From Heterotrichella gracilis (lineage: Eukaryota; Sar; Xanthophyceae; Tribonematales; Xanthonemataceae), in the NCBI GenBank assembly GCA_032358255.1, contig JAULBX010027429.1:1-28542 (forward strand): 28,542 nt of DNA, written 5' to 3'. The notes below the pieces were generated by a model that was not told the DNA's origin, searched no databases, and saw nothing but the letters and a program-made list of their open reading frames with translations. The translations under genes were made by a program, and so were the position numbers. Numbering within the stretch: position 1 is the stretch's first letter; each line of letters starts with the position of its first letter. Shown in pieces: positions 112 to 28,542 of the stretch.

Positions 112-300
112 CCCCCCCCCCCCCTTGCTTAGGCAAATCCTTTTTTCTCTTGTCCCATGGCCTGTTATATGCTGTATTTGTTACGTATTGTATTTTGTAC
201 CTGTTTACTTTTATTGAAGAAAAAATAAATTAAAATAACAATACTTTCAAAAAGGTTTTCTTAGAAGCGTAAAAATCGCGGGCTGTCCTAGCTTGTCCTA
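112..300 (+). repeat. left terminal inverted repeat
   Basis: The arm reads C-run (112-124), a 24-bp divergent spacer, then from CTTGTCCCA at 149 an almost perfect inverted match to 2649-2807. It ends with one full GGACAAGCTA unit (complement strand, 289-298) plus a half unit (283-288). The core is AT-rich and has no credible ORF. Just inside, 310-323 reads AAAAC-GATT-GTTTT, a small hairpin that overlaps the stop codon of the enclosed gene and could act in 3' end formation. Confidence 0.85.
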
Positions 301-321
301 AGCAGATTTAAAACGATTGTT

Positions 322-2598
322 TTATTCGATCTCTTTTTCGACGCACATGAGGTGTCTGATGACGCGTCTTGTCGACCTGTTGGCATTGTCGTAGTTTTCG
401 CAGCAGTCTTTTTGCGCCTCATTGAGACAGAACCTGCACACTTTGGTGTACACTATTTCGTAGCCGAGGCGTTTGAAAGCGGACAGATCGTTATCCCACT
501 TGTACTTTACATGGGGGTGCCTGAAGCGCATGTAATTCATGAATTTTTTCTTAAAGTCTTCAAGCAGCATGCATTCGTTTTTAACCTTGACAAAATACAT
601 GACCTTGTTCGACCACGCGTTTTCGTCTGGTCCGAGCGTAAGAAACATGTGAACGTAATCCGTGCTTTGGCTCATGTCGTCCCTTGTTTCCCTGAAGTAG
701 TCAGAGCACGTGTTCCAGAAGCCCCTGCTTCCTGCGTGATCTATGAGCATCCTGTACGCCTTCAGGGACTTCACGATGATCTTGGACAGCTCAGTGTCAA
801 TAATATTCTGTTTCAGGGAATCGTCCATGTTGGCGACGTACCTGTCGAACCTGAAGATGGCAAGACGTTTTGAAATGGATCCCCTGTCGTCGTTGTAGCT
901 GAGATACCTGTTGCCGCACATGAACATCGGCACCTTCCACTTTACTGACGTCGCTAACCCGTGCTTGACCGGGAGGTTAACGGACTCGCCAGAAACCATC
1001 TTTTTGAAGAGGTCAGATGCCAGCTGCTGTGCCATTTTGTCGGTTATTTCCGGTGCGACGAGGATCTCTTTGTCGTGCTTTGACTGCAGCCCAAATACCA
1101 TTTCGTGGCTCGAGTCCAGTACGCCGACGCTGTTAGGCGAGAACATGGCGCATATGATGTCGACGAGCGTGGACTTGCCGGTGTTTGTATCTCCTATTAC
1201 GAACGGAATAATGTCAAAGCTGTCGAACTGCCCCACGTCGTAGAACAACCTGCCGATGAGCGCCAGCATGTAGGTGTACACCTCGTCAGATTCCAGCTGG
1301 TATTTCAGTATTCTGTCCAGCAGCGACGTGTCCGTGTCATCCAGGTCGCAGTATTGATCTATGTAGTGCCTGGGCACGACACCAAGTTCAAGAACGCCGT
1401 GCCCTACGAGTTCCCCGCTCACGATGTCCAGCAAACCGTTGGAGAAGCCGATGTACCTCCTGTCGCGCCTTACGAACGGAAAGTCTTCATGGTCGACGTT
1501 CGTCATGTAGGTCATCACATCGTTGAATCTCCTTGGTTGCTCTATCAGCGCCTGGTTGTTCGTGAGCGTCGATCTGACGAATTCCCTGTACTGGCCAACG
1601 TTCTCGTACTCGTATGTATCACCAATGCGTCTCAACACGCAGCCGTTCTCTCTTACGAGATTTTTGGATTTTGCAACTTCCAGTATCTCCCTTGTGAGTT
1701 TTGCAATCGCCCCCTTGCCATCCTCGGCAAGATCAAAGAATACTTCCCTTATCGATCTCGATATGCCTCCCTGCAACACCCGCTTTCCGTGACTGAAGCA
1801 GTGGCATACCGCTGATGATTTATACACGTATACGCAGCTGTGACCGCCTGTGGTATGTTGATGGCCCGGCACAACACAGCATTCACGAGTGTCTGCAGTA
1901 AGCTGATACGATGCGTTGTCCAGGTTTTTCACCTTCCATGTCGTTCCGCTCCATCCGATGGCGTTGTTGATGCGCTGCGACATGTCGCACCTGTCTATCA
2001 CTCCTGTTATGACGTTCTGCTGCTGCACGTTCTGTTGGTTGATAGTCCCTAGGTTCAACACGTTGTTGTTAACAATAAAGTTTATCACTGATTTTGGCGG
2101 CGGCCGTGGAACGATCCTGTTGATGATCTCATAGCCCTCGCCGAATGTGAACCCCCTCTTGTTGAACAATATGTCGCACAGGACGAGCGGCTTCAGCATC
2201 CCGCTCTTGATCTTCCCGTCCAGCTCAGGCGTGTGCAGATACACTTTGTGGTACCCCCCGCTGATCGTGCGCGATGTGAACGTATCCGCCGCATCGACCG
2301 GCCCGCACCAATCCTCGAAAAACTCGATGCCGTCGACCTTGTCATCGTGATCATGGCGGTTTACATTTTTCTTGTCCAAATCTATGGCGAACAGCCCCGT
2401 GCTTTCCCCCGTAACGAACATGAAGTGCCGCCATTCAGGAGTCAGCTCAAAGCCCTTCGACTGGTCTGGCGTCACGGACGTCCATTTCGATATCAGCGGA
2501 ACCTTTGTGTGCCTGCCCTTTGCCGAATCAAACTCGACCTTAACGGGTACAAACCTGTCGCAAAAAGACCTTACAAATTCAAGATCCGAAGATGCCAT
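322..2598 (-). CDS. primase-helicase: PrimPol (AEP) fused to SF3 helicase
   Basis: The 758-residue protein combines an archaeo-eukaryotic primase-like N-terminus with a D5-type SF3 helicase and should start and unwind DNA during replication. Residues 71-75 (AIDLD) supply the acidic pair and SGGYH at 113-117 the conserved His motif of the PrimPol fold. A Cys/His cluster at about 240-270 looks like a zinc-binding module. The SF3 ATPase has Walker A GDTNTGKST at 469-477, an acidic Walker B near 511-518 (EILVAPEI), and motif C ending in MCGN near 560. A Cys-rich patch lies near the C-terminus. It is the only gene between the inverted repeats. The promoter octamer 42 nt upstream supports this ATG. 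The virus has its own, different D5 helicase at 4834-6834 and a separate primase at 10305-11141, so this is a second replication module, not the core copy. Confidence 0.85.
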   Translation of the reverse strand: MASSDLEFVRSFCDRFVPVKVEFDSAKGRHTKVPLISKWTSVTPDQSKGFELTPEWRHFMFVTGESTGLFAIDLDKKNVNRHDHDDKVDGIEFFEDWCGPVDAADTFTSRTISGGYHKVYLHTPELDGKIKSGMLKPLVLCDILFNKRGFTFGEGYEIINRIVPRPPPKSVINFIVNNNVLNLGTINQQNVQQQNVITGVIDRCDMSQRINNAIGWSGTTWKVKNLDNASYQLTADTRECCVVPGHQHTTGGHSCVYVYKSSAVCHCFSHGKRVLQGGISRSIREVFFDLAEDGKGAIAKLTREILEVAKSKNLVRENGCVLRRIGDTYEYENVGQYREFVRSTLTNNQALIEQPRRFNDVMTYMTNVDHEDFPFVRRDRRYIGFSNGLLDIVSGELVGHGVLELGVVPRHYIDQYCDLDDTDTSLLDRILKYQLESDEVYTYMLALIGRLFYDVGQFDSFDIIPFVIGDTNTGKSTLVDIICAMFSPNSVGVLDSSHEMVFGLQSKHDKEILVAPEITDKMAQQLASDLFKKMVSGESVNLPVKHGLATSVKWKVPMFMCGNRYLSYNDDRGSISKRLAIFRFDRYVANMDDSLKQNIIDTELSKIIVKSLKAYRMLIDHAGSRGFWNTCSDYFRETRDDMSQSTDYVHMFLTLGPDENAWSNKVMYFVKVKNECMLLEDFKKKFMNYMRFRHPHVKYKWDNDLSAFKRLGYEIVYTKVCRFCLNEAQKDCCENYDNANRSTRRVIRHLMCVEKEIE

Positions 2599-2640
2599 CT
2601 TGAACGGTTCTGTTTCGATTGTAAAAACACGACGTTTTAT

Positions 2641-2648
2641 TCAATTTA
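2641..2648 (-). promoter_or_regulatory. AAAATTGA-type promoter of the element's primase-helicase
   Basis: On the minus strand it reads TAAATTGA, 42 nt before the ATG at 2598, directly against the innermost iteron of the right arm. The corresponding place in the left arm reads TAAGCAGA, so the motif exists only on the side where a gene starts. Confidence 0.6.
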
Positions 2649-2674
2649 GGACAAGCTAGGACAAGCTAGGACAG
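2649..2674. repeat. GGACAAGCTA iterons at the inner edge of the right arm
   Basis: Two head-to-tail copies of GGACAAGCTA are followed by GGACAG. The left arm has one full copy plus the half copy in inverted orientation (283-298). Short iterated decamers beside a primase-helicase gene are the kind of site a replication initiator could bind. That role is inference; only the repeats are seen. Confidence 0.6.
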
Positions 2675-2842
2675 CCCACGATTTTTACGCTTTTAAGAAA
2701 ACTTTTTTGAAAGTATTGTTATTTTAATTTATTTTTCTTCAATAAAAGTAAACAGATACAAAATACAATACGTAACAAATACAACATGTAATAGGCCGTG
2801 GGACAAGGACATATGGTAATATACCCGAGGAGGGGGGGGGGG
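2649..2842 (-). repeat. right terminal inverted repeat
   Basis: This is the inverted partner of the left arm. It starts with two full GGACAAGCTA units (2649-2658, 2659-2668) and a half unit, runs through the same AT-rich core to 2807, then the 24-bp divergent spacer and the G-run at 2832-2842. All eight base substitutions between the arms that I can align are transitions. It lies upstream of the enclosed gene, whose promoter motif abuts its inner edge. A short hairpin-like AAAAC...GTTTT sequence at about 2623-2637 mirrors the one inside the left arm. Confidence 0.85.
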
Positions 2843-2901
2843 AGGCCTGGCCCTGGCCGCCTGCAACACGGGGTAGGCCTGGCCCTAGCCGCCTGCAACA
2901 C
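2843..2901. repeat. GC-rich tandem repeat, period 32 bp, two copies
   Basis: A 27-bp unit beginning AGGCCTGGCCCT occurs at 2843-2869 and 2875-2901 with one mismatch, separated by GGGGT. It abuts the G-run that ends the right arm. No gene is visible between 2599 and 3059: that stretch holds a promoter, the right arm, this repeat and another promoter. Confidence 0.8.
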
Positions 2902-3059: not shown

Positions 3060-3929
3060 ATGTCCAGACGACTCAGGCCTCGTTCAGAATTCGACTACAG
3101 CAGTGAAAACAGGAGCGATGCCGTTTTTACTGTTGGGTCAGCCAGCAAGTGGGAAGAAAACACCTCACGGTATATGAAAATAAGGGTGAATGATGCGCAC
3201 AATATGTTTCCAAAAGGACGTGACCTACCAGACGAAGCAAAATCTTTACTAATACCAGAATGGACTGACGGAGAATGGTTAAAACATATTGATATAAAAA
3301 CTGCACATTATAGCAACAAAATAAGGACTCTGATAAGCAAAATCAGAAAAGTCTTCATGTCTGAAGAAGAGAGCATAACAGAGGTAATCGTAGATGGATT
3401 CATGGACAGTTTGCTTCACATCCTCTGTTTTGATGATTATCCGTGCTCCTTGTACCCTCAGTACGATTATTTTGCGCAAATAGGACCAGACAGCCGCCGT
3501 GTCAAAGCTAAACCGGATTTTAGCGTGCTGTCAGAAGGAAACAAAATAATGCTTGTTATAGAAGACAAAACTGTCACAAGCGCCACATATGCCAATAACT
3601 GGAAGGAGGACCAGGTACTGGGAGAGCTCTTTGCAGCCGTGCACTATGTCGTGACCAAGTCAAAGGTGACATTAACGTACCCAGTGACCGTATACGCAGT
3701 CAGAATCGTAGGTACAAAGTTCACGTTTTACAGAGCAGACGCGACGCTAGAATATATAAAAGAAAGTGCCAAGCTGGGTCTATCTATTGAAAACGAGATG
3801 GTAGTACAGCGGTATCCTCCCGTAGCGGACGATCCGTCTGTATTAACTGCATACAATATATGCAACAAGAATGAAAGAATGCGCATATTGGAATGTCTGT
3901 GCTTTATCAGGCAGTTTATATGCTGCTAG
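3060..3929 (+). CDS. PD-(D/E)XK nuclease-like protein
   Basis: The 289-residue protein has the signature of a restriction-endonuclease-like fold: KPDFSV at 151-156, then a hydrophobic strand and the E-D-K of LVIEDK at 165-170, with a helix carrying Q185 and E189 after it (EDQVLGEL). An acidic residue at E108 could complete the site. The family includes many nucleases of mobile elements and effector-like proteins in fungi, oomycetes and giant viruses; which subgroup this belongs to cannot be told by eye. It lies just outside the inverted-repeat element, with a perfect AAAATTGA promoter 56 nt upstream. By inspection its codons are more A/T-rich than those of the core genes, suggesting later acquisition. 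The last residues (FIRQFICC) end abruptly, so a slight C-terminal truncation is possible. Confidence 0.6.
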   Translation: MSRRLRPRSEFDYSSENRSDAVFTVGSASKWEENTSRYMKIRVNDAHNMFPKGRDLPDEAKSLLIPEWTDGEWLKHIDIKTAHYSNKIRTLISKIRKVFMSEEESITEVIVDGFMDSLLHILCFDDYPCSLYPQYDYFAQIGPDSRRVKAKPDFSVLSEGNKIMLVIEDKTVTSATYANNWKEDQVLGELFAAVHYVVTKSKVTLTYPVTVYAVRIVGTKFTFYRADATLEYIKESAKLGLSIENEMVVQRYPPVADDPSVLTAYNICNKNERMRILECLCFIRQFICC

Positions 3930-4833: not shown

Positions 4834-6834
4834 TTAATTCGCGAGCTCTCCCGTGTACGACACGAACACGTTCTCAGTAACGCCCTGTCCGTCATCCTGG
4901 TATCCCTCGTTCGTGAGCTCCTGGGTGAACTTTTCGAAATCCTGCACGCGTTTGCCCGGATACGACCTCCTGAACCACTCCTTGAAGCATTCGTAGATTT
5001 CTGTCGTTGCGACGTACGAGCCCGGAGTGTAGTACACGAAGAGGCTGATGAACCTGAGCGGGTAGTTGTTTCTCGTCGCGTAGTCCTCGGTGATGGCCCT
5101 GATGACCGGGGGGATTTTGAGGAACATGTTCGACTCGTGCTTCAGCTCGTTGTACTTTCGGCACAGCAGGTACATGAAAGCCGATTTGCAGTTCAGCAGC
5201 TCCTGTTCTATAGAGGGGTCGATAATTTGCGTGCCCTCTTCGAGCGTGCCTTTGGCCTGCCTGGACTTGTACTCGTTCGCGTCGAGGAACGTGCTCGTGA
5301 ACGGTATCACGACCATGCGCCGCCTGATGGCCGCGTCCATTCCAGGAATTTCGATGATGTTGTTGCACACGATGACGAACTTCGCTTTCAGCGTCATTGT
5401 CTTTCCCGACTTGAACAGCTGGCGCACGTACATCACGTCGTTACCAGTCATCTCTTTCATCTGTCCGGCCTTTATTTTCTCGTCGGGGTTGGGCTCCTGG
5501 AGGAACACGACGAGTCGCCTTTCGACGTGGCACAGCTCAGGCGTCGCGTTCGACGAGCCTCCCCTTTTGCTGGTAACGAGCGACGTCGGGGCAGAGCTGC
5601 AGTACTCACCGAACGTCTTCATGACGAGCGTCTGCACGAGCGATTTGGCGTTGTTGCCCATGCCCCACCAGATGAAGAACACCTTTGGGCTGTTGTACCC
5701 CTCGAGGAACGTCGCGCACGACAGGATGAAGAAGTCCAGAACGTCCCTGTTCGGAAAGATCGATCCGAGGATGTCGAGTAGCCGCAGCATCTCTATCGAT
5801 TCCATGTCGGTCACCTGGTAGGGCACGCCTGTGGTGACCGACGTGTAGTCAGACGGCACGGGGTGCGACAGCTGCATCGTATCGGTGTTGTACACGCCGT
5901 TGGTCATCCTGATGATGTTCCTCTTCGCGTCGAGAAGCCCGTAGAAGTTGTCGTCCTGTATCCGCATCTTGATGTCCTTCAAGATCTTGGACCGGACGTG
6001 GACGGACATCATGTGCAGCGCTATGTCCCCCGCGTCTTTCGACTCGAAATATTCGATGAGGTCGGTCGTGAGAAAGTTCCATATGTATCCGTCGAACGAG
6101 CACTCCTGCCACAGCCCGTTGATGAAGCACCAGAGCACGCCCATGCAGTTCACGACGTTGTCGCACAGTATTTCGTACGCCAGGCTTGATATGCCGTATT
6201 CCATTTCTGCCTTTGATCTCGAGCATTCTACTATAGATGAAAGCATCGATTCGACGAGCTGCATCTTGTACAGCCTGTACAGATCGCTGTTGCACCTGAG
6301 CATTTCCGATCGAAGCTCGAGTTTGGAGTATCTCGAGCACTCGAACCCGCTGAACATGATGTTGTCGTATCCCCTGTCTGCCATCATCTTGTTTATGTAC
6401 GACTTTAGAACGTCCGCGTCCTGCTCGCGGTAAGCCATCTTTGCGAACAGGCACAGGCGTTTGATGTCGGGGTCGACGCTGTTGTACAGGGACACGTGCT
6501 TCAGAAGGCTGATGACGTCTGCCATCGTGACGTCCTCTAAGAAGGCACCAGAGTACGGCATGTCGGCCACGCCAAAGAAGTCACCCAAGCTGGTTTCTGA
6601 CATGTCGACCTCTGGTATGCTGTACACTGGAGTCGATTGCATTTCGGGGATGCTTTCTGGCAGAATAGAAGAAATGTCGCCATTGATATCAGGCGCGTAT
6701 ACGACAGAACCATTTGAAGAGTTTGAAAAAATGAGGCACCTACCCGGTACATCTTCTAGCTTCTCCGCTATCTCTACCTTCCACTTTTCAAACAAATCAT
6801 ACGGTGCGCTGGTCGGGACGTAAAACAGCGACAT
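4834..6834 (-). CDS. D5-type SF3 replicative helicase (no primase domain)
   Basis: The 666-residue protein is the core viral replicative helicase. Walker A is GMGNNAKS at 391-398, Walker B lies in RRLVVFLQEPN near 439-449, motif C is FVIVCNN around 486-492, and an arginine cluster RRR at 504-506 supplies the arginine finger. The 200-330 region fits the D5_N domain before the ATPase. The first 200 residues show no DxD or SGGxH primase motifs, unlike the fused enzyme at 322-2598; the primase is a separate gene at 10305, as in phycodnaviruses. A weak promoter match GTAATTGA lies 47 nt upstream, inside the 3' end of the TFIIS gene. Confidence 0.9.
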   Translation of the reverse strand: MSLFYVPTSAPYDLFEKWKVEIAEKLEDVPGRCLIFSNSSNGSVVYAPDINGDISSILPESIPEMQSTPVYSIPEVDMSETSLGDFFGVADMPYSGAFLEDVTMADVISLLKHVSLYNSVDPDIKRLCLFAKMAYREQDADVLKSYINKMMADRGYDNIMFSGFECSRYSKLELRSEMLRCNSDLYRLYKMQLVESMLSSIVECSRSKAEMEYGISSLAYEILCDNVVNCMGVLWCFINGLWQECSFDGYIWNFLTTDLIEYFESKDAGDIALHMMSVHVRSKILKDIKMRIQDDNFYGLLDAKRNIIRMTNGVYNTDTMQLSHPVPSDYTSVTTGVPYQVTDMESIEMLRLLDILGSIFPNRDVLDFFILSCATFLEGYNSPKVFFIWWGMGNNAKSLVQTLVMKTFGEYCSSAPTSLVTSKRGGSSNATPELCHVERRLVVFLQEPNPDEKIKAGQMKEMTGNDVMYVRQLFKSGKTMTLKAKFVIVCNNIIEIPGMDAAIRRRMVVIPFTSTFLDANEYKSRQAKGTLEEGTQIIDPSIEQELLNCKSAFMYLLCRKYNELKHESNMFLKIPPVIRAITEDYATRNNYPLRFISLFVYYTPGSYVATTEIYECFKEWFRRSYPGKRVQDFEKFTQELTNEGYQDDGQGVTENVFVSYTGELAN

Positions 6835-9405: not shown

Positions 9406-10323
9406 ATGTCATGCATCGAGCTCAACTCGAGCTGGAGCTCGACGTACAAGAACCTTGCGAGGAAGGCGGAGTCAAGGGAATGCCAGACGGCAGATAAACC
9501 CGTGTCGGCCGTCGTGGTCGACGTTCGGTCGAGGCTGTTCAGATTCCTTCGAAAGGTCGTCCCGAACAGGCCGCTCGACCAGAAAATTAAATGCGTATTC
9601 GGCCTGCTGAGGGACAAGTACGTCGAAGAAGAAAAAACGTCCGTGGAGGCGTGGGAATACATCACAGGAGAGGTGGCCCTCCTGTCGCCGCAAAAATGCA
9701 CGTACGTTATGTGCTCAAAGCAAGACTGCCCGTTCAAGGTTCCCATGAAGGAAAAAAGGAAAGACGAATTGGAAAGAATCAAAATTAAGTTACACGACTC
9801 GATTCACAAATTCAGACACAACATCATGGACATCAGCTTTTTGCTCGAGTGCCACACGGCGTTCGAAAGCTTTTTGCTGGCCAACGTGGAAGAGATGTGC
9901 CTTATTTTTGACACTCACGTCAAAGAGCACGTGCTCCCGGCAAACGTGGATTATTACGAGTCGGACAGGGTTTGCGCCGATCTATCCATCGAGGGGTCCC
10001 AGGCAATCCTGTCAGAAGACTTCGACTGCGTTGCGCTGTTCGGCGCGCGAATGATGATTCGCGAGGTGTTCACTGGCTTTTTCACGTACACGTCGCTGAA
10101 AGACGTGATGGACGTGTTTGCGGCGAGCTCGCGCCTCAACCTCGTGCACAAATGCTGTATCATCGGAACAGACTACAATCTGGGCGTCAAAGGTATAGGC
10201 CCGGTGAAAGCCTCGCAAATTGACGAGATAAATGCCCAGGAAAAGTTCGAGGCTTGCATGGCCGCACAGGGTATCGACGTTTTTAGCATCCTAAAATTCT
10301 TCAAATGCCCCTTTTCTTCTTGA
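9406..10323 (+). CDS. FEN1/XPG-family flap endonuclease
   Basis: A 305-residue structure-specific nuclease likely to remove flaps and primers during viral replication. The N-terminal nuclease motif is AVVVDVRSRLFRFL at 35-48, with D39 matching the first metal ligand. The internal domain has ESDRVCADL (185-193) and ILSEDFDC (201-208), giving E185, D205 and D207. The H2TH-like segment is GTDYNLGVKGIGPVKA at 254-269, with D256 as the last metal ligand. It lacks a PCNA-interaction tail. Its 3' end overlaps the primase start by 19 bp in another frame, so the two are probably co-transcribed. Confidence 0.85.
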   Translation: MSCIELNSSWSSTYKNLARKAESRECQTADKPVSAVVVDVRSRLFRFLRKVVPNRPLDQKIKCVFGLLRDKYVEEEKTSVEAWEYITGEVALLSPQKCTYVMCSKQDCPFKVPMKEKRKDELERIKIKLHDSIHKFRHNIMDISFLLECHTAFESFLLANVEEMCLIFDTHVKEHVLPANVDYYESDRVCADLSIEGSQAILSEDFDCVALFGARMMIREVFTGFFTYTSLKDVMDVFAASSRLNLVHKCCIIGTDYNLGVKGIGPVKASQIDEINAQEKFEACMAAQGIDVFSILKFFKCPFSS

Positions 10324-11141
10324 AAAAGAGAATATACTACCGCCTTGCAGATATACCGGAAAATGCACGGTCAGTGTTCTGCGTCGACAAGGGATCGTAC
10401 AGGTTCTTCGTCTGTTTCGGATCAACCGAGGAATTTTTAGAATGGCAGCACAGACTTGACGACAATCACAAAACGATGAACGAGGTAGTCAGGTCAGACA
10501 CCAGAAAGCTGGTGTTGGACATAGACAGCCCGGATGACAGCGAACTGTCCATGTTCCAAATGTACGATTTCGAGAGGCACGTAGGCGACAGAATACGAGA
10601 GGTCTTTCGGGCGCTTGACATAGGATGCCCTGAAATACTGTTCTACAGTATGTGTTCAGACGACAAAATTTCCCACCACGTCGTCGTGCCAAACTTCGCT
10701 TTTTCGGCACGTACGTGCGCAGGGCTATGCATGATACTATCGAAGGACCAGATATGGGACGGGCTCGTCGACACTAGCGTGTACAAAAACATCCAGTGCA
10801 TCCGCCTCGAAGGCCACACAAAATTCGGGGAAAAGAGGTGGAAAGTGAGGTCTGACACGACTGCGTGTTCGAGCTACAGAAGGGGAATTATTTCTGACCT
10901 GGAGGGTGCAGAGGTATCGGCGTTTGAATGCAGCGTCTCTTCGCCAGTTCGAAGCGAAATACATTTTTCGGGACACTACATGCGCAACTTTGAAATACGA
11001 AAGGTGTCTGCTGACGGAAGAACGGCCTTCCTGCGCAGGACAAGCCCGGGCTACTGCGCCCAATGCCGCAGGACGCACGACAGGGAGAACGCTGTAATTA
11101 TCAACGCCAGGTTCATCTGCTGGAGGTTCTACTACAATTAA
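10305..11141 (+). CDS. stand-alone archaeo-eukaryotic (herpes/phycodna-type) DNA primase
   Basis: A 278-residue AEP-superfamily primase. Catalytic acids sit in KLVLDID (D72, D74), the nucleotide-binding motif is SHHVVVP at 123-129, and the third motif is the IRLEGHTKFGEKR stretch near 166-178. A C-terminal zinc site is formed by C251, C254, H259 and C272 (CAQCRRTHDREN), as in the UL52-like primases of NCLDVs. It would prime synthesis for the helicase at 4834-6834. The start overlaps the FEN1-like gene by 19 bp; a CAAATTGA lies 81 nt upstream within that gene. The last codons (WRFYYN-stop) are repeated just downstream. Confidence 0.85.
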   Translation: MPLFFLKKRIYYRLADIPENARSVFCVDKGSYRFFVCFGSTEEFLEWQHRLDDNHKTMNEVVRSDTRKLVLDIDSPDDSELSMFQMYDFERHVGDRIREVFRALDIGCPEILFYSMCSDDKISHHVVVPNFAFSARTCAGLCMILSKDQIWDGLVDTSVYKNIQCIRLEGHTKFGEKRWKVRSDTTACSSYRRGIISDLEGAEVSAFECSVSSPVRSEIHFSGHYMRNFEIRKVSADGRTAFLRRTSPGYCAQCRRTHDRENAVIINARFICWRFYYN

Positions 11142-11244
11142 TCAGCGATATGCCGTACTGGTCTGCTGGAGGTTCTACTACAGATATGCCGTACTGGTCT
11201 GCTAGAGGTCAGCATCAAAACTAGATATGCCGTACTGGTCAGCC
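11116..11244. repeat. mosaic repeats made from the 3' ends of two convergent genes
   Basis: The end of the primase gene (TCTGCTGGAGGTTCTACTAC, 11116-11135) recurs at 11162-11181. A piece of the Rpb1 N-part gene (GATATGCCGTACTGGTC) occurs at 11147-11163, 11183-11199 and 11224-11240, the last being coding. The two modules are fused in the intervening copies. The last codons and stop of the Rpb1 gene (11202-11223) lie between copies. Confidence 0.8.
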
Positions 11245-13049
11245 ACAGTTCCGTTGTACTGAAGCTTCAGGTCCGCCATGATCTTGCATGCTTTTCTGTT
11301 GATATATCCCGTCGACGACGTCGATATGCCGGTGCTCACGACGCCCTCTCTCGCAGCCATCTGATGGCTAAAGAACTCGTCTGGCGTGAGCCCCTTGAGG
11401 TACGAGCTGTCACAAAACATGCCTTCTCTGCCACACACGTATTGCTGTCCGAGGGCCACCGCCATGTGAGACACGTGCAACACAGACCCTTTCGCGCCGC
11501 TGTTCACCATGTTCATGATACCCGTGTTCGACAGTTTGTCGACGACGTGAGTGTGAGACCTGTCCCTGAACGCATCGGGATGCTCGTCTTCTCCACGTGC
11601 GAGCGGAGGCACGTGCAGATCCCCGACTGGCACGGTCAAACCGCGCGTTGAAAGCCACCTTTCAACGACGTGCTGCAGCGTACATATGGCCCTCATTGCA
11701 TCGCTTGGTTTCATAGAACACAGTATGTTCTGTATATCTTCCTTTTTCAGTATGCCTCCGTTGTATTTTGGTACGCACATGTACAGCAGCCCTTTCGTCG
11801 TTCGTGCTGCTATATCCACGGCAGGAACGTCCGCAATAAAGACGCAGTCGTTCCACACGGCGTCAGACACGGGCTCGTCGCGCATGGACATAATGTGACA
11901 TCCAGTCACGAGGTCCTGCACCGGTTTTATGCCGCGTGTGAGACCGGATATATGACACAGCTCCATCATCTCTGCCCTGCTTGACATGAAGAAGAGGTTC
12001 ATCTCGTCCCCGTCAAAGTCTGCGTTGAACGGGGCTGTGACTTGGGGGTTTATTCCAAACGTCAGGTATTCGTCCGTCCGAATCCTCACTCTGAAGCACA
12101 CGAGCGACAGCCTCGACAGCGACGGCTGTCTGTTAATCATGACGAAGTCGCCGTTTTGCAGCAGCCTCTGGAACCTCATGCCTTCTATCACGTTTTTTTG
12201 ACAGACGGCATCGTGCGTGTCCGGCCACCACAGGCGTTCGTCGCCTGCTGCAGCCCTGAGTTGCGCGATGTTTGTGCAAGCGCACGTGACGTCCACGCGT
12301 ATCGATTCGGCTATTTGTTTCGGAACAAAGACTTCGTCTATCGCCAGGTTGGGATCGCCGGCGATGACGGCCCTCGCAGAATGCTCCACCCTTTTTCCCA
12401 TCATGATCTTTCTGAAGATGCCGTCTTTTCCCGACATGATGCCGACGATCGTGCTTACAATATCAGATATCGTATGGCATATCGATTCTGCTTTTTTCTC
12501 AGTTTGTTTTGACCTTATGACGTTCACAAGGCGGTCGTACAGCTTTTGCACGTCAGATGACCATTCCATTTCCTCAGGCGTCCTCAAGTGGATAGGCGGC
12601 ACGAGTATCGTCGACAGGATGTACCCGTCAGGAAAAAGGCCTTCAGGCATGTCCTGTATGCGTATTTGCCCTGTTCCCCTATGCCTCGTCGCTACTGTAG
12701 GGTTCTTCGGGCTTATTCTGTAATCTCCGTGGTTAGACTTGCCGCACTTGATACACTTTTTCGTCTGTGACCTGGATATCACAGGCAGCAAGGTCATGCA
12801 TCCGATGCACGTGCTGTTGAGTATTTTTTCCGCTTTTCCGTACACGAGCGGGTGAAACAGCTGCAGCCCAAGAGAGAGCGACGCGTGATGGCCCATGCAC
12901 ATCTCGCTCCTCATGTCACACGTCACGCACACGACCTCGGAGCTCCCCGCATTTCCGAACCTCGGGTCGTACAGGTCGAAGCTGTCCGAAATGTCGAACG
13001 AGGCGAGCCTTTTGACATTCTCGTCAGAGAGAAGCAAGAGGTGGGTCAT
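11202..13049 (-). CDS. RNA polymerase largest subunit, N-terminal part (Rpb1 / archaeal A' equivalent)
   Basis: A 615-residue protein covering the first two thirds of Rpb1. Near the N-terminus are a Cys/His zinc site with CMGHH and a CIGCM...CIKCG pair. Further on are KRVEHSARAVI, RQPSLSRLS, and the catalytic NADFDGDEM near residue 340 whose three Asp hold the active Mg. The bridge-helix region (FFSHQMAAREG followed by TGYINRKA) lies near 560-590, after which the protein ends. The trigger loop and everything beyond are missing here but present in a separate gene at 19183-20286. The frame is open up to 13220, but the extra residues are Ser/Arg-rich and unlike Rpb1; MTHLLLLSDENVKRL at 13049 fits the family start. 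Confidence 0.9.
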   Translation of the reverse strand: MTHLLLLSDENVKRLASFDISDSFDLYDPRFGNAGSSEVVCVTCDMRSEMCMGHHASLSLGLQLFHPLVYGKAEKILNSTCIGCMTLLPVISRSQTKKCIKCGKSNHGDYRISPKNPTVATRHRGTGQIRIQDMPEGLFPDGYILSTILVPPIHLRTPEEMEWSSDVQKLYDRLVNVIRSKQTEKKAESICHTISDIVSTIVGIMSGKDGIFRKIMMGKRVEHSARAVIAGDPNLAIDEVFVPKQIAESIRVDVTCACTNIAQLRAAAGDERLWWPDTHDAVCQKNVIEGMRFQRLLQNGDFVMINRQPSLSRLSLVCFRVRIRTDEYLTFGINPQVTAPFNADFDGDEMNLFFMSSRAEMMELCHISGLTRGIKPVQDLVTGCHIMSMRDEPVSDAVWNDCVFIADVPAVDIAARTTKGLLYMCVPKYNGGILKKEDIQNILCSMKPSDAMRAICTLQHVVERWLSTRGLTVPVGDLHVPPLARGEDEHPDAFRDRSHTHVVDKLSNTGIMNMVNSGAKGSVLHVSHMAVALGQQYVCGREGMFCDSSYLKGLTPDEFFSHQMAAREGVVSTGISTSSTGYINRKACKIMADLKLQYNGTVADQYGISSFDADL

Positions 13050-13193
13050 CTTGAACGTTTGTTTTGAGGGAATTATAAAAAGAAGAAAACTGTCAGTTTG
13101 TGCAACATGCGACCGGCTCGAGCGTCTCGATGATCCAGCCTTTGCTCTGTCAGAGACGCGCGTTACTGCTTGGCGGCTCTGCCCAGCGACGCT

Positions 13194-13209
13194 TAAATTG
13201 ATCAATTCT
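13194..13209. promoter_or_regulatory. two-way ATTGA-core promoter
   Basis: The plus strand has TAAATTGA (13194-13201), 45 nt before the ATG at 13247. The minus strand has AGAATTGA (13202-13209), 152 nt before the Rpb1 N-part start at 13049. The two meet in the palindrome AATTGATCAATT. The plus-strand role is well supported; the minus-strand role is less sure because of the distance. Confidence 0.5.
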
Positions 13210-13246
13210 TTCGCGAGCAAAACAAAGTTATTTAAGACGCTTTAAA

Positions 13247-15121
13247 ATGGGTATAACGGAGCTGTCTGTTTCTGTCCACTTGTCTGGAGAACCGTCTGCT
13301 CCAGTGTGCGATGACGTCCTCTATATGGTCGACTCGAGATTCGATGACCCCGCAGCACCAGGGAACACGGAAAGAGTCGTACACAGGTCGCAGCTCGGTT
13401 CCATCCCCGATTGGGTCACGAACTGCAAAAGAAAGACGCTGAAGTTCGTGTACGCGGCGCATGTGCAGAACGTGGAATGCACGTACTTGTCGAGGGCAGG
13501 CATACTCGTGTGCTCTAAAATAAAGTACGTAAACATGGACAGCATAGACTGGAGTGCCCTGGAAGGCATGTTGCGCGTCAGACTGAACGGCATTGCGGGG
13601 GTGAGGTTTAAAGCTGTGGAAACAATCGCCATATCGAGGCCATGGGACGGAAACATCATAGCCGAAATGATTACGAACGACCCGGAAATATCTCAGGTCA
13701 TGGCGCTGTGTGAAAGGTCGAACACCATTGGCAACAAAAGGCTGTTCTCCGTGGCAGTAGACGTTGGATCAGATGTGTACGCGAAAGCGGTATTGACCCG
13801 CGGTCCCACGCCGACGAGCATCATCATCATGATGTCGAAACTTCCGAACACCGCGACGTCAGAAATAATCGCGTCTGCGTTCAGAGACATTTTTACCAAG
13901 TACGAGGCTGTGTACGACGCGACTTTCGACGAAAAATTCAGTACAGACGACGAAGGAACTACAAGCGACAAAGTCGGCGGGATCAAACAGCTCAGGCAAA
14001 ATCTCCCAGAGCTCTTCGTGCATAATTACACGAGGGAGTCGCCAGTGCTGCCGCTGATGCTATCAGAACAAGATGCTGCTGCTTTTCCACCTGACAAGCG
14101 CGTCATATTTTATCCCAACGACGAAAAGTTTGGCCGCCTCTACGCCGCCCCAGATGGCTACTTTGTAGGACTCAAAAAGAACAGGCTGAAGAACAGCGAC
14201 ATGTTCCCGTATATAGTGACGTGCTACCTTTCTGACCACATGCACAGGCCTGGTTCTGAAACGCACAATTACTACAACGGAATAGAAGACGTCAGAAACG
14301 CGACCAGGACAAACAGGCCCATTCCTAGGGCCATCATCAGCAGGCACATGCGGTACCAGAGGAAAAAAGTAGGAGTTCCTTCGTTTGTGTCGGCCCTCGA
14401 GGCGGCGCTTGGCACGAGCATCGACGCGGGCGTTCTCCCCTGGTGCCCGCAGCTCGTCAGGCAAGAGATGTGGAAGGAATCAGACGAGGAAATCATGGCG
14501 AAAATACGTGATCCTATGAGCACGACGGGGTCGTCGACGTACAGGTATTTTGAAGAGCTGCTGCAGGTGTCGATACACGTCGTCGTCATACAACACGGCT
14601 CTTTCGATACGCTTGTTCCTCCGCACGAGGGCCCGTACTTGTGGGAACCGCCGTACGACCAGCACGTCCTTATATTCGAGAATTACAGGAAAACGTACGG
14701 TAACGCGTCATGCACATACGACGTCCTGACGCATTCTTCCACATCCGGCGACAGCACAGTGTTCGACACTCACGACCCCGTTGTTGAATCTGTCATATCC
14801 CAAAAGAGGGAATTATCATCAGAGCTGCCGCGCATCAACACGGACTCTGGCGTCACCGCGCAGGTAATCGACGAAACTGGAAAGTGCAGGCTGCTGGTTT
14901 TTCGCGACGGCTCTGCAATGGAGACGTACACACGTCCCATGTGCGCGGAGGTGATTGACACGCCAGTCTGCTTCTTCGACGACCACGTATCAAAATTGAA
15001 CACGGTGCGGGAAGCACTCGGCGTAAAAACAATAGACGCATCAAAAAGATCAAACAACAATATACTGTACTTTCCAAATAACTACTCTTTTGTGTACTGG
15101 ATTGAAAATGTCAGAAAATAA
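13247..15121 (+). CDS. A7-like early transcription factor large subunit (probable)
   Basis: A 624-residue soluble protein. The segment at about 304-325 (GLKKNRLKNSDMFPYIVTCY, then a D-x-x-x-R and paired Tyr) resembles the most conserved block of the poxvirus A7 / NCLDV early transcription factor large-subunit family, which with a D6-type ATPase recruits polymerase to early promoters. Flanking regions, such as VPSFVSALEAALG, also fit. This is recognition from pattern memory, not a catalytic motif, and the protein is shorter than most relatives. It is divergent from the Rpb1 N-part gene and its stop overlaps the start of Rpb2, so it sits among polymerase genes. A D6/D11-like ATPase that could be its partner is at 25420. 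Confidence 0.55.
   Translation: MGITELSVSVHLSGEPSAPVCDDVLYMVDSRFDDPAAPGNTERVVHRSQLGSIPDWVTNCKRKTLKFVYAAHVQNVECTYLSRAGILVCSKIKYVNMDSIDWSALEGMLRVRLNGIAGVRFKAVETIAISRPWDGNIIAEMITNDPEISQVMALCERSNTIGNKRLFSVAVDVGSDVYAKAVLTRGPTPTSIIIMMSKLPNTATSEIIASAFRDIFTKYEAVYDATFDEKFSTDDEGTTSDKVGGIKQLRQNLPELFVHNYTRESPVLPLMLSEQDAAAFPPDKRVIFYPNDEKFGRLYAAPDGYFVGLKKNRLKNSDMFPYIVTCYLSDHMHRPGSETHNYYNGIEDVRNATRTNRPIPRAIISRHMRYQRKKVGVPSFVSALEAALGTSIDAGVLPWCPQLVRQEMWKESDEEIMAKIRDPMSTTGSSTYRYFEELLQVSIHVVVIQHGSFDTLVPPHEGPYLWEPPYDQHVLIFENYRKTYGNASCTYDVLTHSSTSGDSTVFDTHDPVVESVISQKRELSSELPRINTDSGVTAQVIDETGKCRLLVFRDGSAMETYTRPMCAEVIDTPVCFFDDHVSKLNTVREALGVKTIDASKRSNNNILYFPNNYSFVYWIENVRK
14992..14999 (+). promoter_or_regulatory. 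AAAATTGA promoter candidate for Rpb2
   Basis: A perfect AAAATTGA inside the 3' end of the A7-like gene, 108 nt before the Rpb2 ATG. The spacing is about twice that at other genes, so it is a weaker candidate; read-through from upstream is the alternative. Confidence 0.35.
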
Positions 15122-17792
15122 AAGGGGGCTCATCGTGCGGGACTTCTTTAGGCACCACGGATGGACAGCCGACCTCAAAAAGAACTACGCGCACTATGTC
15201 CAGATGATGGCAGAGCTGGTGCGCGGTACGGTCGTCGGTCCAACGCGAGGTCCGGAAGCGTGCATCTTTGACATGACAACGTACGAACATTTGATAGTCG
15301 TCGATAGTAAAATCGTCTGCACGATTCCAGCCATGACAGACGACGGGTACTTCGTCATACAAGGCGCCGAAAAAGTGCTTGTCATACAAGAAACGAGGCT
15401 GCAAACAGAACCTTTCGTGACTCGCGATTCGTGCGAACTGTTCGTCAGCGGGGCTGCCGTTCCGACAAAAATACACGTAGTTGACGACTCGATCATCGAT
15501 TTGGACACGAGCATGATCCAGAACAACATGAGAAGCGTCAAGAGGGTCGGCATGTACGAGCTGCTCATGGACATGTTCATGTCGGACAGGGAAAGCCCTA
15601 CAGATAAGTACGTGTTCATGGACAGCCTGATGAAGAGCCACTGCGCGAACAAAAAGCTGGCAAACGCGTGCATGCTTTACGTTTTCTCTTCAACGCGCGG
15701 AACTGGAGATCTTCTCGTCGATCAGGACAGGGAGATAATCAGGTCGAAGATGTTCCGCGGCATGTCGAACGCTACGATCGTGGCTACGCTCGTCGTTATG
15801 ATATCCAAGCTTGTCGCCGTTTACCTCGGAATGGCAGACCCGACGGACAGGGACGATTACAGGTACAAATGCCTCAAAACTCCTGGAGAAATTATCTACA
15901 ACATATTCAGACGATGCGCCAACACGAGCAACCTCCAAGATGCGATACACAAGAAGGTGTATTCTGCGCTCAGGAAAGGAGAGTTCTCGATTGGCGGCAC
16001 GGTGTACAACAAGATGGCCATCCAGCTGTCGAAGAGATCAGTGATAGACAAAATTTCTAGCGTGCGAAAAATTATCGTTCCGTGCGACGAAAATAGTCCA
16101 AATATCGACATGCGACAGATACACTCGAGCCAGAAGGGATACGTGTGTCCGTGCGAGACCCCAGAAGGAAAATCCGTCGGAATCACGAAAAGCCTGGCGT
16201 GCTGCTGCCTCATATCAACGAGCTCGGACGTGTCGGAATGGGTACGCGAGAACTGCCGCCCAGGGCCTTTTCGGAGCTGCATGTGGGCGATCGTCGACGG
16301 GGCGGTTGCTGGTTGGTGCAAGAAAAATGCACCGTATCCTGAAAATGCCTCTTCGTGGAAAACAGCAAACTCTATCGTGATCAGGACAGTCAGTGGCAGG
16401 CCCATACGCCCGTTGATCGTGATTGACGGATACCCCGTCGACTGGAACGAGATCGGCGTGGCGCCTTTCACGCACAAATCTCCAAAAATAAAGTACCTTG
16501 ATCCGGCAGAGGTGAAGGAATCAACGATCTGCTCCATTTCATATGGCGGCGACTGGGAAAGCTTCCAATACGCCGAAATCCATCCGTGCACGATGCTCGG
16601 ACTCGCCGCATCCCTCGTGCCGTTTCCGGAGCATAACCAGTCAGCAAGAAACGTGTTTTCGTCTTCAATGATCAAACAGTCTATGCAGATGCACGACAGC
16701 GAGAAAACATGCAACACGCTCCAGAGGCCGCTCGTGTCGACGCTCGTGGGTCGAGAACTGGGGTACGACGAGAACCCGAACGGCGTGAACCTCGTCACGT
16801 GCATCATGTCGCTCACGGGGTACAACCAGGAAGACGCCATAATCGTCAAAAAATCTGCAGTCGACAGGGGCCTGTTTTCCTCGATCGCCACGTTCGTGAC
16901 GTCCGTCACCGTCGACAGCCCATGGGAAATATTCGAAAACGACAGAATATTAATCGTCCACGGCGGCGTCGAAAGGTCAATCATCGAGGCGATGCCGATG
17001 CTGTCAAAACCAAAGATAAAACACATTCGAGAGTTCATGGCAGAAAACGGCAAAACGAGGCTCGAAATCACGGTCACCGAACACCGCAACCTCCAGCTCG
17101 GCGACAAACTCTCGTCGAGGCACGCGCAGAAGGGTGTCGTCGGACTGCTCATGCACGAGGAAGACATGCCCTTCACGAGCGACGGCATCACCCCCGACAT
17201 CATCATCAACCCCCACGCCATTCCCAGCAGGATGACCGTCGGGCAGCTCATCGAAGGAGTGCTCGGAAAGTCAGCATCGATCACCGGCACGTTCGAAGAC
17301 GGCACGCCGTTTATCAGAAAGAACAAAAGGGACATACACGACATTTTGAACATGAGCGACACGGAAACCGTCACTCTCGGGACGACAGGCGAGATGGTCA
17401 GGACCCCCGTTGCCATGGGGATGGTGTACTACATGGCCCTCAAGCACCAGGCAGTCGACAAAGTGTACGTCAGGTCCGCTGGGCCAAAGAGCCTCATGAC
17501 CAGGCAGCCCATATCAGGAAGATCAAAAGGTGGCGGTCTCCGCTTCGGCGAAATGGAATACGATTGCCTCATATCCCACAACGCCTCCGGGCTCATCACC
17601 GAAGTGTCGAAGAACAGCGACATGGTTGAAGCCCCCTACTGCCCAAACTGCAAAATAATAGTTGATCTGTTCAGCGGGTCGTGCAAATACTGCTCAGGCA
17701 AAACTACAGTCGTAAACGTGCCGTTTTCTTACACCGTGCTAAAGGACCTCATGCTTTCAGCCAACATAGCACTACAAACCGATTACGCTTAA
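15108..17792 (+). CDS. RNA polymerase second-largest subunit (Rpb2)
   Basis: An 894-residue beta-like subunit starting at the first ATG (MSENKRGLIV); its start overlaps the stop of the preceding gene by 14 bp. Conserved blocks in order: CETPEGKSVGITKSLA near 348-363, GYNQEDAIIVKKSAVDRG near 570, GDKLSSRHAQKG near 665 with the following PDIIINPHAIPSRMTVGQ, and ISGRSKGGGLRFGEME near 805-820. A C-terminal zinc ribbon has paired cysteines in CPNCK and CKYCSG near 845-865. It is shorter than the roughly 1,100-1,200 residues of most Rpb2 proteins, mainly in the N-terminal lobe regions. Its last 21 bp overlap the convergent kinase gene. Confidence 0.95.
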   Translation: MSENKRGLIVRDFFRHHGWTADLKKNYAHYVQMMAELVRGTVVGPTRGPEACIFDMTTYEHLIVVDSKIVCTIPAMTDDGYFVIQGAEKVLVIQETRLQTEPFVTRDSCELFVSGAAVPTKIHVVDDSIIDLDTSMIQNNMRSVKRVGMYELLMDMFMSDRESPTDKYVFMDSLMKSHCANKKLANACMLYVFSSTRGTGDLLVDQDREIIRSKMFRGMSNATIVATLVVMISKLVAVYLGMADPTDRDDYRYKCLKTPGEIIYNIFRRCANTSNLQDAIHKKVYSALRKGEFSIGGTVYNKMAIQLSKRSVIDKISSVRKIIVPCDENSPNIDMRQIHSSQKGYVCPCETPEGKSVGITKSLACCCLISTSSDVSEWVRENCRPGPFRSCMWAIVDGAVAGWCKKNAPYPENASSWKTANSIVIRTVSGRPIRPLIVIDGYPVDWNEIGVAPFTHKSPKIKYLDPAEVKESTICSISYGGDWESFQYAEIHPCTMLGLAASLVPFPEHNQSARNVFSSSMIKQSMQMHDSEKTCNTLQRPLVSTLVGRELGYDENPNGVNLVTCIMSLTGYNQEDAIIVKKSAVDRGLFSSIATFVTSVTVDSPWEIFENDRILIVHGGVERSIIEAMPMLSKPKIKHIREFMAENGKTRLEITVTEHRNLQLGDKLSSRHAQKGVVGLLMHEEDMPFTSDGITPDIIINPHAIPSRMTVGQLIEGVLGKSASITGTFEDGTPFIRKNKRDIHDILNMSDTETVTLGTTGEMVRTPVAMGMVYYMALKHQAVDKVYVRSAGPKSLMTRQPISGRSKGGGLRFGEMEYDCLISHNASGLITEVSKNSDMVEAPYCPNCKIIVDLFSGSCKYCSGKTTVVNVPFSYTVLKDLMLSANIALQTDYA

Positions 17793-19133: not shown

Positions 19134-19141
19134 ATAATTGA
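19134..19141 (+). promoter_or_regulatory. AAAATTGA-type promoter of the Rpb1 C-part gene
   Basis: ATAATTGA, 41 nt before the first in-frame ATG at 19183, which supports that start. Confidence 0.55.
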
Positions 19142-19182
19142 ATTTTAATGTCTCTGTTGTTGGACAAACCTTATGCGCAAAA

Positions 19183-20286
19183 ATGGAGCTATCCTGGAGC
19201 GACATCGTAAAAGGAACGTCGTGGGCCGATCTGGTCGAAGATGACCAAGCAGAGGAAAAACCGTGGAGGCACATCGTGTTGGATGGCGGGCCCCCTTCGG
19301 CCAACGAGCCGCCCCCCTCGGCCAACGAGCCAGGGGACCCAATCGGAATACGAGAAGTGCACACGATTATCATGCCTGCAACGCAGATGAACCTAAGTCA
19401 TTTTCACACTGCTGGCATGGGCCATAAAGAGGTGAATATCGTGTCGCCATCAGTGGAGGACGCGATGGTGTCAAAGTACAATAAAACAAACACCAGCATG
19501 ACGTTCGAGCTGATGCCAGGAACTGACGTGTATAGCCTGAGGGGGCAGCTCGTCGGAAAAACGCTAAAGGACTTCGTGTCGGCAGTCGGAAGCAATTTTA
19601 CAAAAATACCTGACAGGGAAAATATATGGTACGAGGCGCTGGGGAAGCCTGTTACTGAAGTTCCCATGATCAGGCTGTACGTTGATGTCGCAGCGATGAG
19701 ACACCACGGTTTTTCGCTCAACGATCTCGCGGAGGCGGCGTTCGGAAGCGACTGTATTTGGCAGACGTCTCCAGATTTTATGGGAATGATAGACGTCGAG
19801 TTTACGGGAACGTACCTTGCACCGTGGCTGTCGAGGATGAGCTCTGTGGTTGGCGGAACGCACGACATACTGTCGCTCGTCGCACCCGATGGAAAAACCG
19901 CCGTGACGACAGGGTCAGACATTTTCACCGCGACAACAACTCCTTGTGTCAAGAAGGAGACGATATGGTCGAACAATGTGAAGGACGTGTACGCGCATTT
20001 CGGCGTAGAGGCGGCAAATTTAGTGTTGCGAAAGCTCACAAGCAGAATAATATCCGATTTTATGACACGCACTGGGACCGTCGTGCCGTACACGAAGAAC
20101 AGCATCGAAGTGCGCCGCAAGGGGCTGCTTACTTCGATGGGATTCGAGCGGCCAAAGGAGGATATCAAGCACGAGCTGACGTCTGATAAGCGCTTTCCTT
20201 CGGGGAAAAAGTGCGTGTACACGTCAATCATGACAGGGCAGGACCCAGGCTACCTTTTCGATGTAAGCCATTTGTCTCTCACGTAG
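19183..20286 (+). CDS. RNA polymerase largest subunit, C-terminal part (archaeal A''-like)
   Basis: The 367-residue protein completes Rpb1. After a 55-residue Trp- and Pro-rich leader comes the trigger loop: MNLSHFHTAGMGHKEVNIVS at about 69-88, matching the TLNTFHxAG block of all Rpb1 proteins. Near the end, the block from SNNVKDVYAHFGVEAANLVL, through the F of LLTSMGFERP, to SIMTGQDPGYLFDV follows the order of conserved C-terminal Rpb1 motifs. There is no heptapeptide-repeat tail, as usual for viruses and archaea. The size is close to archaeal A''. The missing N-part is encoded on the other strand more than 6 kb away. The 3' end overlaps the DNA polymerase gene by 37 bp, tail to tail. Confidence 0.85.
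   Translation: MELSWSDIVKGTSWADLVEDDQAEEKPWRHIVLDGGPPSANEPPPSANEPGDPIGIREVHTIIMPATQMNLSHFHTAGMGHKEVNIVSPSVEDAMVSKYNKTNTSMTFELMPGTDVYSLRGQLVGKTLKDFVSAVGSNFTKIPDRENIWYEALGKPVTEVPMIRLYVDVAAMRHHGFSLNDLAEAAFGSDCIWQTSPDFMGMIDVEFTGTYLAPWLSRMSSVVGGTHDILSLVAPDGKTAVTTGSDIFTATTTPCVKKETIWSNNVKDVYAHFGVEAANLVLRKLTSRIISDFMTRTGTVVPYTKNSIEVRRKGLLTSMGFERPKEDIKHELTSDKRFPSGKKCVYTSIMTGQDPGYLFDVSHLSLT
19291..19331 (+). repeat. 21-bp in-frame tandem repeat in the Rpb1 C-part leader
   Basis: Two nearly identical copies (period 21 bp) encode PPSANEP twice, at residues 37-50, ahead of the trigger loop. This linker is not part of the Rpb1 family. Confidence 0.8.
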
Positions 20287-28031: not shown

Positions 28032-28102
28032 ATAGATGTGCATTTAAGTGGATTTGAGAGTGTTTCTTGCGGTGCTGGGCATACACAGCAATACGCTGCA
28101 CT

Positions 28103-28542
28103 ATGAACTCTAGGCTTATCATTATCTTTCTGTCGATAGGAACAACATTTGCCGGGTGTGGTAACGATTGTTCCGGTTGTACCAGTAAGCAATCGTGTAC
28201 CAATAGTAAAGCCAAGAGCAATTGCTGTTGGACAGGTACCAAGTGTACCAACAAGCTAAACGACGTTGCAAACTGTGGCACGTGTGGCAAGAATTGCCCA
28301 ACGAAGAGCAATGGTGTCACAACGTGTATTGCAGGAATATGTGGTTTTGCATGCACTTCTGGGTACACGAAATGCGGCAACGCTTGCGTGAACTTACAAA
28401 ACAATAACAAAAACTGCAACATATGCGGCCGCATATGTCCAACTACAAAAAATGGAAATGCAAGTTGCAAAAGAGGCAAATGTGTCGTTACATGCAATAG
28501 AGGATTTGATAAATGTGGCAACAAATGCGTCGATTTGAAGAG
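28103..28542 (+). CDS. secreted Cys-rich repeat protein (3' end cut by window)
   Basis: The 146 visible codons encode a hydrophobic signal peptide (RLIIIFLSIGTTFA, cleavage likely after residue 18 or so), then Cys-rich repeats of about 45 residues. Each repeat follows NC-x2-C-x3-C, a C-x2-G-x-C core, then GY/F-x2-CG-x2-CV. The pattern resembles Stig1-type and related extracellular Cys repeats found in fungi, plants and myxobacteria; disulfides would form only in the secretory pathway. The codons are richer in A/T than in neighbouring core genes, suggesting later acquisition. It is probably a surface or secreted host-interaction protein, though that is inference. Confidence 0.8.
   Translation, partial: MNSRLIIIFLSIGTTFAGCGNDCSGCTSKQSCTNSKAKSNCCWTGTKCTNKLNDVANCGTCGKNCPTKSNGVTTCIAGICGFACTSGYTKCGNACVNLQNNNKNCNICGRICPTTKNGNASCKRGKCVVTCNRGFDKCGNKCVDLK

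Follow-up and report, generated by a model that had tools for sequence, protein, structure and literature searches.

Results

An inverted-repeat block at the left end of the contig

The window, that is, the whole 28,542-nucleotide stretch analysed here, is one contig (C492) of a 68.5-Mb assembly of 903 contigs. At its left end lies a 2.7-kb block made of two inverted arms (112-300 and 2657-2845) around one intact gene. In the alignment of 112-300 against 2845-2657, the arms are identical in 169 of the 187 columns that have no gap. The local score was 267, whereas the best of 500 mononucleotide shuffles of the left side reached 35. Similarity is highest in the AT-rich left core (149-300, forward strand) and the right core (2657-2807, reverse strand), delimited by their alignment to each other: 143 of 151 positions are identical (94.7%), one 1-nt indel separates them, and all 8 core substitutions are transitions. 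The GC content of the arms is about 32%, against 51% in the gene. The initial annotation, made from the letters of the window, had described arms of about 190 bp with cores about 94% identical, and the alignments agree with it.

From the outside inwards, each arm consists of a C or G run, 24 unconserved bases, the AT-rich core and a set of iterons. Run counts gave a C13 run at the outer end of the left arm (112-124, forward strand) and a G11 run at that of the right arm (2832-2842, forward strand). These terminal runs, also part of the initial description, are the only C/G runs of at least 7 in the whole window; the runs in 50 dinucleotide shuffles reached at most 8. Both are placed symmetrically, 24 nt outside their respective cores. 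The outer 24 nt are unrelated in sequence between the two arms, yet the distance to the runs is equal. Each of these stretches holds a 4-bp stem (TTGC-TTAG-GCAA at 125-148, forward strand; GGTA-TAT-TACC at 2808-2831, reverse strand), a coincidence matched by 122 of 5000 shuffles. A repeat search also found two 32-bp GC-rich direct repeats (2838-2901, forward strand) that start inside the right-end G run.

Internal hairpins had been proposed for the arms; as a defining structure they were rejected. The best internal palindromes were equalled by 28/200 and 26/200 shuffles, and folding of the whole arms gave z values of -1.02 for the left arm (30/200 shuffles fold as well) and -2.35 for the right arm (3/200), which leaves this part of the description weak. 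Since the left arm lies 111 bp from the contig end, and the left flank is no longer than that, the left junction of the element has little support. A chimeric-assembly artefact was considered as well; the 8 differing sites of the arms and their dissimilar outer 24 nt make it unlikely.

The iterons sit at the inner edge of each arm. Exact motif searches located two copies of TGTCCTA, 10 bp apart, on the left (284-300, forward strand) and three with the same spacing on the right (2647-2673, reverse strand); such 10-bp-spaced repeats are absent from the rest of the window, so that the iterons first reported for the arms are indeed present and confined to them. The exact iteron pair (a 17-mer) was found nowhere in the 68.5-Mb assembly beyond the two arms. 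With 1-2 mismatches it occurred at 6 further places, compared with 10 for a reversed-pattern control, and the iteron 21-mer was present in 0 contigs of IMG/VR.

A single, probable primase-helicase gene between the arms

The space between the arms is filled by a single ORF of 758 aa (322-2598, reverse strand), an intact, putative PrimPol-SF3 primase-helicase gene according to the ORF and HMM matches, and no second gene lies inside. The SF3 core was recognised by PF19263 (2.7e-8) and phrog_1156 (4.8e-17); its Walker A motif was read by eye as GDTNTGKST, and the downstream SF3 motifs aligned. The N-terminal 266 residues matched the Prim-Pol family PF09250 with an E value of 0.0011 and 19.8 bits, below the curated cut-off of 22.8, and DxD and SGGYH motifs were seen by eye. 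The protein is an SF3 helicase with a probable PrimPol domain, the PF09250 match being sub-threshold. The annotation of a lone gene at this place was thus correct, and its reading as a primase-helicase is probable. No capsid protein, packaging ATPase or integrase is encoded between the arms, which enclose this one gene only, and neither an integrase nor a transposase was found inside the arms.

Searched alone, the 758-aa protein matched no PDB chain. A two-row profile combining its SF3 part with a phage primase matched 7ola ('DNA primase', 1.1e-17), a match to which the phage row contributes, because the protein by itself matches no PDB chain; 7ola is probably the SaPI5 protein. AlphaFold2, run on the single sequence, gave a mean pLDDT of 31.8, too low for the model to be informative.

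The contig encodes its own D5 helicase elsewhere, as had been claimed: a core D5-type helicase outside the element, supported by HMM matches (4834-6834, reverse strand). This protein scored 108.8 bits against TIGR01613 and 3.6e-44 against phrog_1156, compared with 32.6 bits and 4.8e-17 for the 758-aa protein; with PF19263 the order was reversed (34.9 bits for the 758-aa protein, 26.7 for D5). Aligned with each other, the two proteins matched out of register and over no more than 65 columns (28.9 bits). By these profile scores the 758-aa protein does not look like the lineage's core D5, an identity that would have spoken against a separate element, and appears to be an extra SF3 protein. The Walker A motif of D5, GMGNNAKS by eye, has an A where G is usual.

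A separate primase had also been claimed. A putative AEP primase gene is present outside the element (10305-11141, forward strand) and shows primase motifs by eye, which upholds the claim in part; its product had no meaningful match in Pfam. Directly after it, a 36-bp tandem repeat of 2.5 copies (11147-11240) overlies the 3' end of a part of the RPB1 gene.

The contig and its viral lineage

Pfam searches showed a giant-virus-type set of replication and transcription genes in the window. Matches above the cut-offs were: a TFIIS-like zinc ribbon, RPB1 (in two pieces), RPB2, DUF5757, a deoxynucleoside kinase, PolB, the methyltransferase part of a capping enzyme, an SF2 helicase and D5 (via D5_N); matches below them were to uracil-DNA glycosylase-like, XPG/FEN1-like and guanylyltransferase families. 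Two genes on opposite strands (11202-13220, reverse strand; 19138-20286, forward strand) each encode a part of the largest RNA polymerase subunit, the break falling within RPB1 domain 5. A cysteine-rich protein with a signal-like start by eye (28067-28540) is truncated by the contig end.

Whole RPB2 had no relative in IMG/VR in our scan, and a 57-aa RPB2 block matched 18 contigs. Against these, RPB2 (15111-17792) was 24-30% identical over alignments of at least 600 residues, and shorter conserved pieces reached up to 43%. Comparison of 21 window genes with the 18 IMG/VR loci, covering at most 10 kb on each side, found matches only to RPB2 (18/18) and to an RPB1 piece, RPB1a (4/18). The low RPB2 identity, together with the lack of any common gene but RPB1 in the compared stretches, places the contig, as judged from its protein sequences, in a deep, poorly sampled giant-virus lineage.

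DUF5757 was found only on C492 within the assembly. The capsid, A32 and VLTF3 families had no match in the assembly, the capsid and VLTF3 profiles being silent in the controls too; other contigs carrying the remainder of the virus may be absent from it. Among the other contigs are GC-rich ones (57-58%) whose PolB matches are short and exon-like, and two (C622 and C92, loci L005 and L006) that are low in GC (30-32%), carry PolB-like genes and look phage-like by eye. Since the two kinds occur together, the assembly is probably that of a mixed culture.

Promoter motif and codon usage

The heptamer AAATTGA occurs 10 times in the window (both strands), and 8 of these occurrences lie in sense orientation in the 100 bp before one of the 21 genes, where 0.37 were expected (Poisson 3.7e-9, uncorrected; the best among 7-mers seen at least 3 times upstream). 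One of the eight, before the primase-like gene, falls inside the preceding coding sequence. The looser AATTGA precedes 11 of the 21 genes. The motif resembles the AAAATTGA early motif that the available text of PMC11788076 attributes to several Nucleocytoviricota.

A motif search placed one AAATTGA before the PrimPol-SF3 gene (2641-2647, reverse strand; AATTGA at -48). As this is the contig's promoter motif, the gene is probably under viral-type control. The motif adjoins the right-arm iterons, so an initiator bound to these iterons would sit at its own promoter. Exact AAATTGA is absent from the left arm, and the arms are therefore not simply duplicated promoters.

Foreign composition as a sign of recent arrival was rejected, because the codon usage of the PrimPol-SF3 gene (-1.019) is that of the 12 core viral genes (-0.965 to -1.383); core-like usage is expected also of an old resident gene. 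Beside the element lies a 289-aa orphan ORF (3060-3929, forward strand) with a lower GC content (43%) and an aberrant codon usage, of which the assembly holds no other copy and whose KPDF...VIEDK stretch resembles PD-(D/E)XK nucleases by eye.

Copies, insertion traces and relatives

The arms, the 758-aa protein and its domain each occur once in the 68.5-Mb assembly, the second DUF5906 match being D5, and no empty site was found. The flanks (...CTGGTGTA and AGGCCTGG...), compared by eye, show no visible target-site duplication at the C/G ends, and no interrupted gene was seen in them. The heptamer ACTGGTG, present at 103-109 and 2900-2906, was considered as a target-site duplication and rejected, its recurrence being within chance for such flanks by estimate.

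In IMG/VR, neither the whole protein, its SF3 part, its PrimPol part nor the two-row profile found a relative, and the protein had none among GTDB genomes; both scans depend on exact matches of short peptides and detect only close relatives. A degenerate GDTNTGKST pattern occurred in 7 IMG/VR contigs, 0 of which carried an ORF resembling the protein at E 0.01. Plasmids gave no match. Among phages, one primase matched with 24% identity over 148 aa (20% of the query; E 7e-3), in 2 records of one genome. Other copies, which a mobile element might have left, were accordingly absent from the assembly, and IMG/VR, GTDB and the plasmids yielded no close relative; a sister genome did not turn up in these scans, most of which detect close relatives only. 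Among the matches listed, open-access titles and abstract openings described no inverted-repeat element of a giant virus with a PrimPol-SF3 gene as its only gene.

Discussion

Comparison with known elements

Mimiviridae transpovirons are described as linear elements of 7 kb with inverted ends of 380-520 nt (PMC7031253), and the pacmanvirus lostcity transpoviron as having inverted ends of ~150 nt and partial recombination with the viral genome (PMC11788076). In the available text of the two sources, transpovirons are linear dsDNA with a helicase gene, host-virus promoter motifs, 6-12 genes and free episomes; their core genes include a zinc-finger/HTH protein and a membrane protein, and that text mentions no transposase (PMC7031253, PMC11788076). 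Their helicase belongs to superfamily 1, going by a title cited in PMC7031253. The element shares with them its terminal inverted repeats and a host-virus promoter (AAATTGA, -48) upstream of the helicase gene. Unlike them as so described (~7 kb, 6-12 genes, a superfamily 1 helicase, free episomes), it measures 2.7 kb, its sole gene encodes an SF3 protein with a probable PrimPol domain, and it is known here only in integrated form. The element is thus smaller than the transpovirons of these published descriptions and has a different replicase. That it is smaller than any transpoviron, as initially stated, agrees with the 7 kb on record; the size as such is less exceptional, a 2-kb giant-virus episome having already been published (PMC11788076).

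That episome, the pacmanvirus PLE, is also integrated in giant-virus genomes and carries the AAAATTGA early promoter; it has three proteins of unknown function, and the available description includes neither a replicase nor inverted ends (PMC11788076). It is similar to the element in size and integrated form, and differs in having these three proteins where the element has one replicase gene. The submariner MITEs of Pandoravirus salinus, as far as described in the accessible part of PMC4495683, are non-coding inverted-repeat sequences in 30 copies with a TA duplication; the element is likewise an inverted-repeat sequence in a giant-virus genome, but it is coding, occurs once and has no duplication that could be seen. 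Compared with cut-and-paste DNA transposons and MITEs in general, it lacks both a target-site duplication and multiple copies in 68.5 Mb.

The P4-type primase-helicases of phages and plasmids (phrog_1156, TIGR01613, PDB 7ola) have the SF3 core and, probably, a PrimPol-like N-terminus in common with the 758-aa protein, from which they are very distant (24% over 148 aa for the one phage match); they are borne by prokaryotic elements. Polinton-like viruses and virophages carry a capsid, a packaging ATPase and an integrase, whereas the element has none of these and one gene only. Mriyaviruses, small relatives of giant viruses, are all stated to encode a HUH endonuclease in the available text of PMC10962738.

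A possible minimal replicon or a fixed viral module

We consider it about evenly probable that the block is a minimal transpoviron-like replicon with one gene, carried by a deep giant-virus lineage, and that its initiator would act on the iterons of its own arms. The argument for mobility or self-replication is drawn from anatomy: the outer ends match, the one gene is of initiator type, and the iterons occur nowhere but beside it. Symmetric arm limits, arm-confined iterons, an extra SF3 protein with a sub-threshold Prim-Pol match, the viral promoter motif and the precedent of the published transpovirons count in favour; a single copy, the lack of a visible target-site duplication, of an empty site and of a transposase or integrase, the core-like codon usage and the unconserved outer 24 nt count against. 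The first view of the block as a self-replicating or hitchhiking element has therefore held for the discrete, matched ends and the non-D5 gene, and is conditional where movement is concerned, given one copy and no visible target-site duplication. Because the arms differ by 8 transitions, the ends were not freshly copied in a recent insertion.

The single copy, the absence of an interrupted gene in the flanks, the 5% divergence of the arm cores, and the codon usage and promoter motif shared with the contig's other genes would also suit an immobile origin-plus-initiator module, in which the virus's second primase-helicase lies between two inverted copies of an origin that serves the whole genome. 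This explanation accounts for codon usage, promoter and single copy as well as a replicon does, and less well for symmetrical ends with C/G runs, which origin function does not need; the contig, moreover, already has a D5 and probably a primase. We regard it as the main rival, less probable than the replicon. It is improbable that the block is what decay has left of a larger invader (polinton-like virus, virophage or linear plasmid), with only the replicase and shortened inverted ends retained: cryptomonad PLVs do have terminal repeats, inverted or direct, and primase-helicase fusions occur in two of these viruses, the repeat type of the two being unspecified in the available text (PMC12747079), but the gene here is intact and fills the inter-arm space, with no second gene left. 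Most improbable of all is an ordinary viral gene caught in an unrelated inverted repeat, such as a flip-over or terminal-region duplication near the genome end. The left arm, 111 bp from the contig end with a weakly supported junction, would allow for it; it would make coincidences of the iterons beside an initiator-type gene and of the ends that match around exactly one gene, and the differing arms speak against a simple chimeric-read artefact.

If the block is a replicon, it would have lodged in, or been captured by, a deep-branching giant-virus genome. The viral RNA polymerase would transcribe the PrimPol-SF3 gene early, and the protein would bind the iterons on the inner side of each arm, melt the AT-rich arms, synthesise primers and leave their extension to the viral PolB. 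In this way the viral factory would replicate the element or the DNA next to it. Such an initiator would fit the iterons, the AT-rich arms and the promoter, and by binding beside the promoter it would also keep its own expression down. Lacking a transposase, the element would enter and leave the viral genome through recombination at its arms or ends, a route that the available text describes for the pacmanvirus transpoviron (PMC11788076). In its strongest form, which we put forward tentatively and hold to be the less probable side of the question, this reading makes the block the smallest known autonomous giant-virus replicon: an element with a PrimPol-SF3 gene as its only gene and iterons in its inverted ends, borrowing polymerase and transcription in the viral factory, a eukaryotic-virus counterpart of minimal plasmid replicons.

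Should the element replicate itself, it would mark how small a giant-virus passenger can be, broaden the transpoviron lifestyle to include a different replicase and a further deep lineage, and offer a compact test system for iteron-type initiation in viral factories. Should it be a fixed module, the locus would be a candidate for a defined replication origin, with its cognate initiator, of a giant virus.
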